A stretch of DNA of 64,000 bases from Thermococcus stetteri (lineage in GTDB: Archaea; Methanobacteriota_B; Thermococci; Thermococcales; Thermococcaceae): contig NZ_JAGGKB010000001.1 in assembly GCF_017873335.1 (NCBI RefSeq), positions 372,001 through 436,000 of the forward strand, in the 5' to 3' direction. Shown here piece after piece: positions 4,803-10,897 of this stretch. The translations under genes and the position numbers were made by a program. The notes under the pieces were generated by a model. The model searched no databases. It saw only the letters and a program-made list of their open reading frames with translations, and had not been told where the DNA came from. The stretch's first letter is position 1. Every line of letters starts with the position of its first letter.

Positions 4803-5582
4803 ATGATACCTCTGATAATAGCCCTCGAGATTCTGTTGCTGTACCTATCCTTAGAACCAGTGGGAATCCTAGCCATGGTTCCTCCCGTGCTCATTCTCGT
4901 AGGTATGCACCTAATGGCGAACAGAGGTAGGACAAACAACCAGCTCATCCCGCTAGATGAGAAAGAGATGAAGTGGCTCCACGAGGGGATAGCAGAGATG
5001 TCAAAAAAAGCGGGGACAAAGATTCCAGAAGTGTATATTCAGGACGACTACATACCAAACGCCTACTCCTTCGGCAGGAATATAGTCCTTTCGCTAGGAC
5101 TATTCGAGGTTCTAGACAAGGATGAAATCTTAGCCGTGGCCGCCCACGAGCTTGGCCACATAAAAAACGGAGACACAAAGCTGTTCCCGTTAGTAACGTA
5201 CGGGCGGTATCTAATGCTCATAACTACCCTCCTGCTGGTGGTCGGTGGCAACCTTCTCGTCAAAATAACTGCCCCACTGCTCTATGTCTCCTACGAGGTG
5301 TCAAGGGTAAACTTCATGAAGAGGAGAGAGTTTATGGCCGACGACACTGCACTAAGGCTACTCCCCACGCCCATGAGCCTCAAAAGAGCCCTCGAAGAGC
5401 TGAAGTACTACGAAGACCTGAGAACGGACGTAAAGATCAGCGCCCTGCCAAGCATTGAACCGAGCATAGAGAGGGATCAAGGGTCTAAATGGTCTTCCTT
5501 CGTCGAGACTCATCCCTCCTACGAAGAGAGGATAGTTAGGATCACAATGTACATTACAAACCTCAACAAACGCCTCCAGTGA
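4803..5582 (+). CDS. M48 family membrane zinc metalloprotease (HtpX-like)
   Basis: A 259-residue membrane peptidase. Two membrane helices near the N-terminus (about 4-38) precede the catalytic domain with the zinc motif HELGH at residues 115-119; the probable third ligand is E176 in RREFMADDTA, the typical M48 EXXXD segment. A hydrophobic hairpin (about 136-165) lies between them. M48 enzymes degrade membrane or damaged proteins. The coupling with a BlaI-type repressor (6-base gap) recalls BlaR1/BlaI, but BlaR1 is M56 with a sensor domain and this protein has none, so signal sensing is unproven. Confidence 0.85.
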   Translation: MIPLIIALEILLLYLSLEPVGILAMVPPVLILVGMHLMANRGRTNNQLIPLDEKEMKWLHEGIAEMSKKAGTKIPEVYIQDDYIPNAYSFGRNIVLSLGLFEVLDKDEILAVAAHELGHIKNGDTKLFPLVTYGRYLMLITTLLLVVGGNLLVKITAPLLYVSYEVSRVNFMKRREFMADDTALRLLPTPMSLKRALEELKYYEDLRTDVKISALPSIEPSIERDQGSKWSSFVETHPSYEERIVRITMYITNLNKRLQ

Positions 5583-5588
5583 TGGGAT

Positions 5589-6125
5589 ATGTTAAGGATA
5601 GAGATAAAGCTTGATCCTGAGAAGGCCGAGAGGATAAAGAAGATCAGACCGACCAAAGACGAGTACTTCATGCTGATAGCCAAGCTCGTATCCCTCCGAG
5701 CGACATGCCCGAGGCTCAGGGTCGGAGCGGTTGCAGTGAAGGACGGCTACATTCTCGCGACCGGATACAACGGCGCGCCGAGAGGAATGGATCACTGCAT
5801 TGACGTCGGCTGTCTGATGGTGGACGGGCACTGCCATAGAGCGGTACATGCCGAACAGAACGTCATTGCTATGGCGGCAAGGAAAGGGATAAGCCTCGAG
5901 GGGGCAACGCTTTACGTTACCCACTTCCCATGCGATACCTGCTTCAAGCTCCTCATAAACGCCGGCATCAAGGAGATAGTCTACGAGGAGATGTATCCCA
6001 ACGAGGCAACCGAGATACTCCTGAGGGAAGCCCAGGAGAAGGGGATTGTGAAGATCAGACAGTTCAAGCTCAAAAAGGAAAGGGTAAGGCTGTTCCTGGA
6101 GGAGCTATTCGGAGAGGATTTCTAG
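5589..6125 (+). CDS. dCMP deaminase (ComEB-like zinc cytidine deaminase)
   Basis: A 178-residue zinc-dependent deaminase with HAE at residues 87-89 (zinc ligand His and catalytic Glu) and PCDTC with Cys115 and Cys118. The CIDVGC/HCHRAVHAEQN context is typical of deoxycytidylate deaminases (ComEB/Dcd family), which convert dCMP to dUMP for dTTP synthesis. Length fits. It starts six bases after the M48 gene but appears functionally unrelated. It converges with the DUF2304 gene, whose stop codon abuts its own at 6125/6126. Confidence 0.92.
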   Translation: MLRIEIKLDPEKAERIKKIRPTKDEYFMLIAKLVSLRATCPRLRVGAVAVKDGYILATGYNGAPRGMDHCIDVGCLMVDGHCHRAVHAEQNVIAMAARKGISLEGATLYVTHFPCDTCFKLLINAGIKEIVYEEMYPNEATEILLREAQEKGIVKIRQFKLKKERVRLFLEELFGEDF

Positions 6126-6500
6126 TTAGGATTTCCCTTCTTTCCCCTCTAGTTTCTTCAGCCTCTCGTTGATCTCCTCGAGTTCTATTGCAACCTTTCT
6201 CGTCAGCTCTGTTATCTCCCTTTCCGTTTTATCAATTTTCAGGTAGAGGTCAAAGACGACAAAGAACATGAGGCCTATAGATACCACGAAAAGGGCATCA
6301 AGCCCTCTGCCAAGGCCCAAAAGACCTTTTATCGTCTGTGATACCTGGATGGGGAATATCGCCACTACTACAAACACCAGTATGAGTATTGCCCACGATA
6401 CAACGCTCTGCCGGTCAAGTCTCCCGTTAGAGTAGTCGCGGTATATCCTCAGCAGGAGGTATGCGAGCACCAGCAGTGCTATAACCTGAGCCGCGTACAT
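6126..6500 (-). CDS. DUF2304 membrane protein, partner of the glycosyltransferase
   Basis: A 124-residue protein with three membrane helices (about residues 3-22, 34-53, 70-90) and a C-terminal coiled coil (KTEREITELTRKVAIELEEINERLKKLEGK). This is the DUF2304 layout, a small protein regularly encoded next to dolichyl-phosphate sugar GT2 transferases in archaea, as here. ATG 6500 is preferred over GTG 6503 because of the GAGGTGAGGGG ribosome site. It lies six bases after the HAD-GT2 gene on the same strand. A role as membrane partner or flippase helper is inference. Confidence 0.82.
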   Translation of the reverse strand: MYAAQVIALLVLAYLLLRIYRDYSNGRLDRQSVVSWAILILVFVVVAIFPIQVSQTIKGLLGLGRGLDALFVVSIGLMFFVVFDLYLKIDKTEREITELTRKVAIELEEINERLKKLEGKEGKS

Positions 6501-6506
6501 CACCCC

Positions 6507-7829
6507 TCACCTCAGTTTGTCGAACAGCAGGTTGAGGGCTATCTTAACACCCTCAAGGACGTTCGTCCCCTTTCTCATCGAGTACTCAGTGTAGACGGCC
6601 TTTATCGGGACCTCAGCGATCCTGCAACCGTTTTTAACGGCCTCGATTATGATCTCGCTCGAAACAGCGTACCTGTCGCAGGTGATTTTGATCTTTGCGG
6701 CACACTCACCGCTGAAGCACCTGAGTCCGCTCTGGCTGTCGCTGACGTACTTATGCGCAAACAGCGCCGTTATGAAATCGAGGACGAAGTTCCCAAACTT
6801 TTTGACGAAGGGCATCTGACTGGTGTCGCCCTTGAGGCGGGAGCCGACTGCAAAGTCCGCTTTCCCCTCTGCAACGGGCTTCATGACCTTCAACGCGTCA
6901 CTTATCAGGTGCTGGCCGTCGGCATCGAAAGTGATGACCATCCTGGCACCCTTCCTAACCGCGTAAGCGAGCCCCGTACCGAGCGCACCTCCAAGACCCC
7001 TGTTCACTAGGTGGGTGAGGACGTGGACACCGAAGGATCTCGCTATCTCCTCGGTTCTGTCCCTTGAGCCATCGTTGACAACGACTATTTCTTCGCGCCT
7101 GAAATACCTCAAGAGATCAGTGAGGACCGAGCCGATTGTTTTTTCTTCATTGTAAGCTGGAACAACAACGTAGCTAGACAGCAACCGCTCCATCATAGGG
7201 ATAAAGTGCTCCATGGTGGGGATTTCAAAATTAGGAGTGGCCTCAACTGAAAAGCTCATCCTCCCGGCTTCGTGGGATGTCACCAAGAGGCTGAGCGCAC
7301 CGGCGTTCTTTGCAGCGATGACGTCGTAGCCATGATCGCCAACTACAAGAGTCTTCTCGGGAGGAACTCCGAGGACATCCAGAACCCTGGTTATCTGCCC
7401 CCCACTGGGCTTCAGCTGGTCTGGGTGGACATCTTCTCTCGCGACAATAACGTCAAAGTAACCGGCAATGCCCGTTTTCTGAAGGGCAAAGAGTGCGGCA
7501 TCCCTTGAACTCCTGGTCACAACTGCCATCCTGATTCCTCTCTCCCTCAGGAATTCGAGAGACTCCAGAACACCTTTGAAGAGGAAGGCATCTTTCATCC
7601 TGTCTCTCTCAAGCTCGACCTGTATGGAATGGAGTTCATCAAAGGGGATACCAGTTTTCTCGGAGATTTTGATCAAAGTCTCGTACATCGGCGTTAGGTC
7701 TCCGATAAGACCCTCCCTTATGCCAAGCTCTAAGAGCCTGTTTCTAAGCTCATCCTTGATCTCAGAGAAGGCCTTTGGAGCGCCAACCAGCGTGCCGTCG
7801 AGGTCAAAGACAACCAGTCTGATGTCCAT
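6507..7829 (-). CDS. HAD phosphatase - GT2 glycosyltransferase fusion protein
   Basis: A 440-residue two-domain protein. Residues 1-205 are a HAD-superfamily phosphatase with VFDLDGTLVG at 7-16, VVTRSSRDAAL and the ADHGYD-like VVGDHGYDVIAAKNAGA motif (phosphoglycolate phosphatase type). Residues about 218-440 are a family 2 glycosyltransferase of the dolichyl-phosphate mannose synthase type: VVVPAYNEEKTIGSVL, VVNDGSRDRT, FDADGQH and DSQSGLRCF. No membrane helices follow; the neighbouring DUF2304 protein may supply the anchor. The fusion suggests sugar-phosphate or dolichyl-phosphate turnover coupled to transfer, but substrates are unknown. Confidence 0.9.
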   Translation of the reverse strand: MDIRLVVFDLDGTLVGAPKAFSEIKDELRNRLLELGIREGLIGDLTPMYETLIKISEKTGIPFDELHSIQVELERDRMKDAFLFKGVLESLEFLRERGIRMAVVTRSSRDAALFALQKTGIAGYFDVIVAREDVHPDQLKPSGGQITRVLDVLGVPPEKTLVVGDHGYDVIAAKNAGALSLLVTSHEAGRMSFSVEATPNFEIPTMEHFIPMMERLLSSYVVVPAYNEEKTIGSVLTDLLRYFRREEIVVVNDGSRDRTEEIARSFGVHVLTHLVNRGLGGALGTGLAYAVRKGARMVITFDADGQHLISDALKVMKPVAEGKADFAVGSRLKGDTSQMPFVKKFGNFVLDFITALFAHKYVSDSQSGLRCFSGECAAKIKITCDRYAVSSEIIIEAVKNGCRIAEVPIKAVYTEYSMRKGTNVLEGVKIALNLLFDKLR

Positions 7830-7882
7830 ACTACCACCGAAGGGTTTATTTTTGACGGTTCCAACGAAATGCGGTGTCAGTA

Positions 7883-8779
7883 ATGGAAGCGGCGGCCCCC
7901 CTTATAGCCTTAACCCTTTCGGCAGTACTAACCCCCTACATGGCCGGACTCATGAAAAAAGCCGGGATAGTCGGAAGGGACATACACAAGTTGAACAAGC
8001 CGGAAGTTCCCGAAATGGGGGGACTAGCACTTCTCATATCCATTGGAGTTGTTTCATCCATAATTGAGCCGAAAATCGGCCTTGTTTTCCTCCTGTTTGG
8101 GATAGTGGGAGTTATTGACGATCTAACTGCCTTAAGACAGTCCCACAAAGTCCTCATGTCCTTGCTAGTAGCCTCACCTGTAATGTTTTTTGATATCCCG
8201 GGGTACGTAGATGTATTTGGATTCCAGATCAATCTCGGGTCTGTTTATCCACTAATAGCTCTCCTGTACGTGGTGGGTTCGGCGAACTTGGTGAACATGC
8301 TCGCCGGTTTTAACGGGCTGGAGGTCGGAACGAGTGCGATAGCACTGGCTTTTCTCGGAGTTCTTACGAGGGGAGTAGCCAAAGAGCTGGCCTTTATCGG
8401 TGTGGCAGCGGCCCTGGGGTTTCTCTGGTGGAACAGGTACCCAGCCAAGGTGTTTCCAGGGGACACTGGAACCCTCAGCCTCGGAGCCCTCATCGGACTC
8501 GTCGCCGTTGTGGGAAAAGTAGAAGTCTATGGAGCAATCCTTCTGATACCTCACTTTCTGGACTTCGTTATAAAAGCTGTTGGAGTGAGGTTTGGAGTCA
8601 GAAAACACGGAAGGACCGAAGTCCTCCCCGACGGAACTCTAAGAGCACCACCTTATCCGAGTTTTCTGGGGATGATAATAAGAAAAGTGCGGGTTAACGA
8701 ACCAAGACTAGTGGGAATCGTATGGGCCATAGAAGTCATTCTTGGTTTTCTTTCCCTTGCTCTGAGTCAATTACTTTGA
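7883..8779 (+). CDS. GT4 family polyprenyl-P GlcNAc-1-phosphate transferase
   Basis: A 298-residue polytopic membrane protein of the MraY/WecA/GPT family (AglH-like). It shows the cytoplasmic motifs KLNKPEVPEMGG, GVIDDLTAL (aspartate pair), NLVNMLAGFNGLEVG, and FPGDTGTLSLGA. This family transfers GlcNAc-1-P (or a similar sugar-P) from a UDP-sugar to dolichyl phosphate, the first step of N-glycan lipid-linked oligosaccharide assembly. ATG 7883 is preferred over GTG 7874 because GGTG at 7873-7876 serves as its ribosome site. It is divergent from the HAD-GT2 gene (53-base gap), so the two may share a promoter region. It overlaps the Cas6-like gene end by 44 bases (convergent). Confidence 0.9.
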   Translation: MEAAAPLIALTLSAVLTPYMAGLMKKAGIVGRDIHKLNKPEVPEMGGLALLISIGVVSSIIEPKIGLVFLLFGIVGVIDDLTALRQSHKVLMSLLVASPVMFFDIPGYVDVFGFQINLGSVYPLIALLYVVGSANLVNMLAGFNGLEVGTSAIALAFLGVLTRGVAKELAFIGVAAALGFLWWNRYPAKVFPGDTGTLSLGALIGLVAVVGKVEVYGAILLIPHFLDFVIKAVGVRFGVRKHGRTEVLPDGTLRAPPYPSFLGMIIRKVRVNEPRLVGIVWAIEVILGFLSLALSQLL

Positions 8780-9485
8780 CCATGCCAAAGCCGTAGCGGG
8801 TCTTCTCGCCAAATCCAGTCTCGTATCCAAGCCGCGCCAGTTCGGGTGAGCCAGAGTACTTGAAGACCATAAGAGAACTCCTGTAGTAGGTGTCCTTGAC
8901 GAGAATCCTGACGGGCTTAAACTTCAGAACCTCAATCTTAAACTCCTTGTTCTCTGGCATCTTACCGTAGATACTTGAATAACGCATGAGCATTATTTTC
9001 CGGAGTTTATCGAAGAACATCTCGTCATCGGGATAGAGATCCCACACCTTCATCCGGCCATTAACGAACTTGACGGTCCTTACGAGAATCGGACTGAGGG
9101 TTGAAAAGAGGATCGGATCCTTTAGTTCTGGCTCCTTTAAGACCTTGACGTCATCCGCGATGAAAACGGCATCCTTGATCTTCAGGAGAGGATCATCAAG
9201 GAACCCCTCAGCGATGGCATGGATAACATCGGTGGAATGGGATGAAACGTAGAGAGAAACATCATCGGAGAGAACCCTGATACCTGCCTCTGGAATAAGC
9301 TCCCTCTTCCGAACCATTATCCTTGAGAACGTAAAGTAATCAACACCGCTGGACTCGACCTCCTTGCCAAGCTCTGGAGAGACCAGATAGATCTTCTCCA
9401 GTAACTGAGAATAGACCTCGTAGTTGTAGTTAAACGGGAGAATAGTACCCACCTCAGCGGGCCTGAGTTTTATTTCAATCCTCAT
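8736..9485 (-). CDS. cas6: Orphan Cas6-family protein, probably non-catalytic
   Basis: A 249-residue protein that follows the Pyrococcus Cas6 pattern along its whole length: N-terminal MRIEIKLRP, PFNYNYEVYSQLLEKIY, FSTLSPI in the middle, and the C-terminal glycine-rich GYETGFGEKTRYGFGMVKV (a RAMP loop). Cas6 cuts CRISPR repeat RNA. Aligned from memory to P. furiosus Cas6, the positions of catalytic Tyr, His and Lys appear replaced (FTFSRIM preceded by SSGVDY rather than a His/Lys pair), so it may bind without cutting, like the non-catalytic P. horikoshii homologue. No other cas gene or array is in the window. ATG 9485 has GGAGGG seven bases upstream. Confidence 0.85.
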   Translation of the reverse strand: MRIEIKLRPAEVGTILPFNYNYEVYSQLLEKIYLVSPELGKEVESSGVDYFTFSRIMVRKRELIPEAGIRVLSDDVSLYVSSHSTDVIHAIAEGFLDDPLLKIKDAVFIADDVKVLKEPELKDPILFSTLSPILVRTVKFVNGRMKVWDLYPDDEMFFDKLRKIMLMRYSSIYGKMPENKEFKIEVLKFKPVRILVKDTYYRSSLMVFKYSGSPELARLGYETGFGEKTRYGFGMVKVIDSEQGKENQE

Positions 9486-9530
9486 TATTGATCCCTCCAA
9501 TGCAGTACCAATACGTTCAAACATCAAAGA

Positions 9531-9541
9531 GGTTAATAAGT
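9531..9541 (-). promoter_or_regulatory. TATA-like box of the Cas6-like gene
   Basis: On the minus strand ACTTATTAACC lies 46 bases before ATG 9485, consistent with a start site near 9505. The remaining 9542-9703 interval before PAN shows TATA candidates (AGATATACAC near 9670) but no CRISPR repeat or other gene. Confidence 0.4.
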
Positions 9542-9703
9542 GTTTCGAGGGGGAGTATGAAATTTGCTGTCAATCCGATAGTTACCTTTTGAATCGTTAA
9601 ATAAAAAGTGTGGGCTAGGGACACTGCCGACCCAAAGCATGGATAGAGTTAAAAAGAGTCCCAACTAGATATACACTAGGAGAGAAGTTAGAGGTGAGAG
9701 CGC

Positions 9704-10897
9704 ATGAGTATTGATAACGCTGAGGTTCACCCGGAGGGTTACGATGACTACGTCACTTTCCTCAAAAGGAGAATCAGGCAGCTGGAACTTCAAGTGAGAA
9801 CGCTTGAAGCAGACAAAGAGAGGCTGGAGAGGGAGCTTTCGAGACTGAGGATGGAGATGTCGAGGCTCAGGCAGCCGCCGGCCTTCGCAGGGAACGTCAT
9901 AGAGGTGCTCGACGACGAGAGAGCCATCGTCCAGAACTACAACGGGCCGAGGTTCGTCGTCAGGATAGCGCCGTGGATAGAGAGGGACAAGCTCAAGCCC
10001 GGGGCCAGAGTTGCCCTCGACCAGAGGACGATGGCGATAGTCGAGCTCCTGCCGAGCGAGAAGGACCCAAGCGTCCTCGGCTTTGAGGTTATTGAAAGGC
10101 CCAACGTCACATATAAGGACATTGGAGGACTTAACAAGCAACTACAGGAGCTAAGGGAAGCCATCGAACTCCCGCTCAAGCACCCGGAGCTCTTTGAACA
10201 GGTCGGCATCGAGCCGCCGAAGGGGGTACTCCTCTACGGCCCGCCGGGCTGTGGAAAGACCCTAATGGCCAAGGCTCTCGCAAGGGAAGTCAACGCCACA
10301 TTCATCCGCGTGGTTGGGAGTGAGCTTGTGAGGAAGTTCATAGGCGAGGGCGCCAGGATGGTCCACGAGCTCTTCGAGCTGGCCAAGGAGAAGGCCCCGA
10401 CGATAATCTTCATAGACGAGATAGACGCCATAGGCGCCAAGAGGATGGACGAGACAACCGGTGGCGAAAGGGAGGTAAACAGGACGCTCATGCAGCTCCT
10501 AGCTGAAATGGACGGCTTCGACCCGAGGGGCAATGTGAAGGTCATAGCGGCAACAAACAGGCCGGACATACTCGACCCAGCGCTCCTCAGGCCAGGAAGG
10601 TTCGACAGGCTGATAGAGGTTCCGCTCCCGGACTACCACGGCAGGCTGGAGATACTCAAGGTCCACACGAGGAAGATGAACCTCAAGGGCGTTGACCTGC
10701 GCGTTATAGCGGAGATAACCGAGGGAGCCAGCGGGGCAGACCTCAAGGCCATAGCGACCGAAGCCGGGATCTTCGCCATCAGGGACAGGAGGACGTACGT
10801 TACGCAGGACGACTTCCTTAAGGCCGTTGACAAGGTTCTCGGCTCGGAGAAGAGGCTGGCCCAGCAGATAGCGATGCACGAGGTCATGTACGGCTGA
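9704..10897 (+). CDS. pan: Proteasome-activating nucleotidase PAN
   Basis: A 397-residue AAA+ ATPase: N-terminal coiled coil at about 15-58, OB domain (about 60-120), Walker A GPPGCGKT at 179-186, Walker B IIFIDEID at 234-241, and a C-terminal M-Y-G (HbYX motif) that docks into the proteasome alpha ring and opens its gate. PAN unfolds proteins and feeds them into the 20S proteasome; the beta subunit gene psmB is 44 kb away in this window. Monocistronic; a T-rich run at 10898-10919 is a probable terminator. Confidence 0.97.

Follow-up and report, generated by a model that had tools for sequence, protein, structure and literature searches.

The gene at 9485..8736 on the minus strand of the 64-kb window (the whole stretch of Thermococcus stetteri DNA that was analysed) is an ortholog of the Pyrococcus non-catalytic Cas6 proteins PfuCas6nc and PhCas6nc (PH0350), and is referred to here as cas6nc. 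The protein is not new and its Pyrococcus relatives are known. What is new is its order-wide retention in one clade across the Thermococcales, with a conserved promoter-like element and under purifying selection, including retention in five genomes without detected cas genes. Overall, Cas6nc is probably a nuclease-dead, single-strand RNA-binding Cas6 that has been fixed in the core genome, and it probably has a client beyond crRNA. A previous sequence-only reading had described an orphan Cas6-like protein that seemed to have lost its catalytic residues; our analysis confirmed this observation and partly supported the interpretation given to it. Since the gene is retained almost universally, and also by the five genomes without detected cas genes, its role becomes a testable question. 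Retention in such genomes hints at a second job outside CRISPR, and if its client is a cellular RNA, Cas6nc would exemplify the conversion of a CRISPR RNA-binding protein into a housekeeping factor.

In the list of open reading frames (ORFs) of the window, cas6nc is uninterrupted and encodes 249 aa followed by a stop codon, and its assignment combines ORF, profile, alignment and fold evidence. A GGAGGG motif (9493..9498, minus strand), 7 nt before the ATG, resembles a Shine-Dalgarno sequence and may act in ribosome binding. Further upstream is the element CGAAACACTTATTAACCT (9530..9547, minus strand), which is BRE/TATA-like and was conserved in 19/19 aligned upstream regions (19 taken of the 89 available), consistent with a promoter. 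The 3′ end of cas6nc overlaps by 44 nt with a convergent ORF (7874..8779, plus strand) that we take to be MraY/GPT-like, and 78 of the 89 orthologs have this gene next to them. Neighbour overlap was ruled out as the cause of cas6nc conservation, because only 44 of 750 nt overlap in the window. On the other side, head-to-head with cas6nc, lies an ORF (9704..10897, plus strand) that is presumably a PAN-like proteasome-activating AAA ATPase. PAN was found within 700 nt of cas6nc in 63/89 orthologs (head-to-head in 55, downstream in the same direction in 8), which is a lower bound since some contigs or fetched pieces stop short of PAN. At eight loci (L062, L066, L068, L069, L071, L072, L074 and L075), cas6nc precedes PAN by 81-163 nt on the same strand, an arrangement suggesting that the cas6nc segment was inverted and that the two genes may be co-transcribed. 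An Rfam scan of the window returned two rRNAs, a tRNA, Pab19 and sR5, none of them at cas6nc.

Curated profiles placed the window protein in the Cas6 family with scores above their cut-offs. It matched the Pfam models Cas_Cas6_C (4.2e-31) and Cas6_I-A (8.6e-17), with 108.8 bits for PF01881 (cut-off 23) and 61.7 for PF21350 (cut-off 27), the NCBIfam model TIGR01877 (1.3e-43; 149.8 bits, cut-off 58.65) and the PADLOC Cas6 profile (2.9e-84). The best solved sequence matches in phmmer were 3ufc (9e-90) and 3qjj/3qjp (2.3e-86), with PfCas6 at 1.9e-28. An AlphaFold model (mean pLDDT 92.8, from a 20-row alignment), together with alignment to solved Cas6 proteins over residues 1-240, predicted two RAMP domains and a C-terminal glycine-rich loop. 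In fold comparison, the model was nearest to PhCas6nc 3qjj (Z 36.0, rmsd 1.4, 56% identity), followed by PfuCas6nc 3ufc (Z 35.7), canonical PfCas6 3i4h (Z 30.0, rmsd 1.6 over 224 residues) and M. jannaschii Cas6 5yi6 (Z 29.6). The window protein is thus closer to 3ufc and 3qjj than to canonical Cas6 by both sequence and fold, as expected for a member of the Cas6nc ortholog group, although it comes from another genus than these Pyrococcus proteins. The non-catalytic structures were released by the PDB in 2012, 3qjj under the title 'One RAMP protein binding different RNA substrates' and 3ufc under 'Characterization of a Cas6-related gene from Pyrococcus furiosus'. The primary papers are reportedly Wang et al. 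2012 and Park et al. 2012.

For the active site, we aligned (MAFFT) 90 Cas6nc proteins, i.e. 89 from Thermococcales plus PhCas6nc 3qjp, with 18 canonical Cas6 proteins that included M. jannaschii 5yi6 and L003, a Cas6-like protein of the host genome. PfCas6 catalytic numbering was assumed to be Tyr31, His46 and Lys52. In these columns the window protein has Leu29 (codon 9399..9401), Glu44 (9354..9356) and Asp49 (9339..9341; all minus strand). The proposal that the whole triad is replaced therefore holds, as does the exchange of Lys for Asp before YFTFSRIM. A change of His to Val, as had been suggested, was not recovered, because Val43 is the neighbour of Glu44 and phmmer places a gap, not Glu44, opposite His46. 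The replacement is also no one-off loss but is shared by the ortholog group of PfuCas6nc and PhCas6nc. Across the 90 proteins, the Tyr31 column holds only L, V, I or M (48, 21, 19 and 2), the His46 column E 61, Q 13, S 10, K 3, D 2 and R 1 with His in 0/90, and the Lys52 column D 80 and G 10. Not one of the 90 retains a triad residue at any position, compared with Tyr in 17/18, His in 18/18 and Lys in 17/18 canonical proteins. The window protein thus lacks the PfCas6-type Tyr/His/Lys triad of a crRNA-processing endoribonuclease, and carries the replacements typical of Cas6nc; the triad losses of 3qjp are the same in the alignment.

In contrast to the triad, which separates the window protein from canonical Thermococcales Cas6 (PfCas6 3i4h and 3pkm), the two-domain fold and the glycine-rich loop are common to both. 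The loop GFGEKTRYGFGMVK is intact in the window protein, as had been proposed, and spans residues 224-236 (GFGEKTRYGFGMV; 8778..8816, minus strand) in the alignments. PFNYN and GFG.KT..GFGMVK were invariant in 20 proteins compared, and FNYN was fixed in 90/90 Cas6nc proteins. In total, 69 columns were ≥98% identical among the 90, with Lys or Arg at 14 of these. The near-fixed basic columns include R55, R59, R136 and K163, which are mostly missing from 17 canonical members (the same set with L003 left out), and 22 near-fixed Cas6nc columns differ from these 17.

Triad loss alone is no proof of inactivity, as a passage in a review (PMC3727216) describes two active S. solfataricus Cas6 paralogues without a general acid or base, and Cas6nc could likewise still cut RNA by way of an unusual active site; the title of PMC3652601 speaks of an 'atypical active site'. 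The nearly fixed basic residues would fit such an enzyme, as would the His found somewhere in residues 41-51 of 65/90 Cas6nc proteins. However, the window protein has no His in this segment, where 3qjp has SSPHG before FTFSR, and the Lys52 position is Asp or Gly in 90/90. Furthermore, the P. horikoshii ortholog is called inactive in that review passage (PMC3727216), and 3UFC is named 'non-catalytic P. furiosus Cas6 (PfuCas6nc)' in PMC3652601. We consider an active nuclease improbable.

The earlier reading had suggested that the protein may bind crRNA or another stem-loop RNA in a new role. A stem-loop ligand is unlikely, because the review passage states that PfuCas6 and the inactive P. horikoshii homologue bind unstructured RNA; binding of repeat RNA by PhCas6nc is also reported there (PMC3727216). 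Most likely, the protein binds single-stranded RNA and leaves it uncut. Cas6nc is a two-RAMP-domain Cas6 by its predicted fold, lacks the catalytic triad and is encoded by a near-universal core gene of the Thermococcales; it would hold single-stranded RNA resembling the 5′ end of the repeat without cutting it and may act as an RNA chaperone or regulator, with at least one client under selection presumably being other than crRNA.

We then consider how widely the gene is kept. Some Cas6 match was present in 92/94 Thermococcales genomes, and an intact cas6nc ortholog in 89/94. The copy in G026 is broken, and four genomes gave no ortholog: G054 (53% complete), G059 (90%), G088 (75%) and G091 (80%). 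Among genomes ≥90% complete and ≤5% contaminated, cas6nc was intact in 72/74, the exceptions being G026 and G059. The two G026 halves are not counted among the 89, and the duplicates L030, L009 and L033 were excluded as their genes are identical to L037, L039 and L003. In most genomes, cas6nc lies away from cas loci at a shared chromosomal place. The median dN/dS was 0.061 (range 0 to 0.313, 198 pairs) for cas6nc and 0.127 for canonical Cas6, for which only 4 pairs passed; both medians use only pairs with dS of 0.1 to 1.2. cas6nc is therefore a near-universal core gene under purifying selection. The absence of an adjacent cas gene, the lost triad and the break in G026 could point to a decaying remnant of an earlier cas locus, yet a dN/dS of about 0.06, the conserved promoter-like element and the intact gene in 89/94 genomes make such a remnant hardly credible. 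A pseudogene was ruled out by the dN/dS and the promoter-like element.

In G026, cas6nc is split between codons 147 and 148 by a rearrangement (L041 4968-5525 and L042 4989-5318), with the halves ∼23 kb apart. Both halves look undecayed, and this is perhaps a recent natural knockout. Beside the N-terminal half are a 396-aa ORF and a 499-aa ORF (methylase-like by eye). With its cas6nc broken, G026 still has 99 repeat matches and another two Cas6 genes; the gene is therefore not strictly essential and, if the assembly is right, is dispensable there.

The window gene is in no cas locus and beside no array. As the first reading had reported, the 64 kb contains no array: no array-type direct-repeat family was found in the window, nor any match to the Thermococcales repeat. 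In the host assembly (2.03 Mb, 7 contigs), profile searches gave four Cas6 matches, i.e. the window gene on C1, two on C3 and one on C5, and the window protein as query recovered three Cas6 matches in its own genome. All Cas1, DevR, over-cut-off Cas3 and other Cas6 matches are on C3 or C5, outside the window, confirming a Cas6 homolog outside any cas locus. C3 carries I-A and I-B genes with a 29-copy repeat family, and C5 carries I-B and III-A genes with a 23-copy family of a different repeat. The search of the whole genome for arrays and another cas6 that had been called for thus found both. Because the genome has three further cas6 genes, and arrays on C3 and C5, the window gene is an orphan by location only. 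The triad is present in the C3:57667 Cas6 by alignment, and Tyr, His and Lys are near the expected places in the C5 Cas6 by eye. The other C3 gene (42431-43201, L003) is Cas6-like and beside I-A genes; it keeps His and has Ile/Val at the Tyr31/Lys52 columns. On C5, a TnpB-family gene (L035 7910-9220) lies between the cas3 ORF (5379-7466) and cas1 of the I-B/III-A locus.

Cas6nc might instead be an accessory of CRISPR. Repeats matching CAATAAGACTNNNNNAGAATTGAAA with ≤1 mismatch occurred in 88/94 Thermococcales genomes, and a 2026 preprint (PMC12934983) calls CRISPR–Cas near-ubiquitous in Thermococcales. Cas6nc could bind the pre-crRNA or crRNA repeat uncut and protect it, hand it over or compete for it. 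The gene would be kept because Thermococcales often lose and regain CRISPR, and genomes now lacking cas genes would have lost theirs recently. The repeat-RNA binding reported for PhCas6nc, the wide occurrence of CAATAAGACTNNNNNAGAATTGAAA repeats and the glycine-rich loop, invariant in the 20 proteins compared, all fit this account, as do the short arrays still present in three of the five genomes without detected cas genes (G020, G058 and G090). Against it stand the shared place of cas6nc away from cas loci in most genomes and its one clear break, which is in a genome that keeps repeats and other Cas6. Selection in the five genomes, two of which (G039 and G079) have no array of the types searched, shows no sign of relaxation and also speaks against it. 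We regard this account as possible but rather doubtful.

The five genomes G020, G039, G058, G079 and G090 are good assemblies (95-99% complete, G020 being one contig) that all keep cas6nc, and profile searches of them found no Cas1, DevR-type Cas7, PF03787 (type III RAMP), over-cut-off Cas3 or Cas6 other than Cas6nc. Below-cut-off helicase matches to the Cas3 model were present in all five and likewise in 14/14 control genomes, and we read those in the five as unrelated helicases. G090 at least is a MAG, in which cas loci can drop out in binning. The array search used only two repeat patterns; with these, G079 had no array match, and G039 had no array of either type and a single three-mismatch repeat match, equal to the control count, although this match is exact over its first 13 bases. 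In G020, cas6nc is kept with neither usual neighbour adjacent.

Selection on cas6nc in these genomes looks unrelaxed. Compared with nearest relatives, dN/dS was 0.077 for G020 (dS 0.53), 0.028 for G090 (dS 0.30), 0.026 for G058 (dS 0.86) and 0.010 for G079 (dS 0.18), and 0.022-0.036 for G039, where dS (1.4-2.1) is near saturation. Ten relative-rate tests across the five, not all independent, gave no acceleration: in 9/10 the cas-less branch had no more changes than the branch it was compared with, and in the remaining test it had 7 against 6. The five genomes thus keep cas6nc under strong selection although no cas genes were detected in them, which favours a role beyond crRNA and supports a selected client other than crRNA. 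Against this stands that their Cas loss cannot be placed in time and could be recent, that three of the five still have short arrays, and that the gene is broken in G026. Going further, Cas6nc could be a domesticated Cas6, i.e. a core RNA-binding protein of the Thermococcales that acts on cellular, non-CRISPR RNA and that arose, before the order diversified, by recruitment of a type I-B-like Cas6; we hold this fuller account tentatively, at a little short of an even chance. No host RNA client came to light, which also counts against a client beyond crRNA: a search of the five genomes with the repeat-5′-like pattern GTTNCAATAAGAC (≤1 mismatch) gave no excess over the reversed-pattern control outside arrays (e.g. 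5 vs 10 matches in G039 and 14 vs 17 in G079). In the open-licence literature, we found no paper on the role of non-catalytic Cas6 or its order-wide retention, and none under PH0350 or PF0393.

In G015 (L045, L184), Cas6nc is the sole Cas6 found, yet the genome has Cas1, Cas3 and 15 GTTTCCGTAGAAC-type repeats, i.e. an array without a recognised processing enzyme. G050 has isolated, near-identical degenerate repeats on three contigs (C64:1807, C65:11159 and C77:4117) and no Cas1 match.

The origin of cas6nc was examined in a tree of 54 proteins, which held 33 of the 89 Thermococcales Cas6nc proteins and neither 3ufc nor 3qjp. The 33 formed one clade (100/100), including the Pyrococcus-like L098, apart from canonical Thermococcales Cas6. 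A recent duplicate of a resident Cas6 was ruled out by this separate clade. Of the relatives in the named collection, 22/23 loci were from Thermococcus, Thermococcaceae, Thermococcales or Thermococci and one was from Methanofastidiosia, in a set from which records nearest the own genome may be omitted. The plasmid and phage collections, which may leave out records very near the own genome, had no cas6nc match. Inheritance of the gene is probably vertical.

The nearest catalytic relatives, by sequence and tree, are M. jannaschii Cas6 (5yi6, 7.6e-40) and the type I-B-like Cas6 of G114, a genome of the same class and another family (38% identity to the window protein). Both joined next to the Cas6nc clade with weak support (87/72, 86/70), and the tree program flagged the G114 join as a possible long-branch artefact. 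Unlike the window protein, both have Tyr, His and Lys by alignment, and the G114 gene, again unlike cas6nc, is in a locus where genes for a type I-B Cas7 and a Cas5-like protein accompany an array of about 23 repeats. In a search of the phylum outside the order, 5/21 genomes had a match at 1e-10, and no triad-less relative was seen among the three read (G114, G105 and G102; the others were G101 and G095), which have Tyr, His and Lys all in place by eye. Since the Cas6nc clade is separate and its nearest relative in G114 has an intact triad, loss of these residues most likely took place on the Thermococcales stem, before the present members diverged, in a protein that would not derive from the present resident Cas6.
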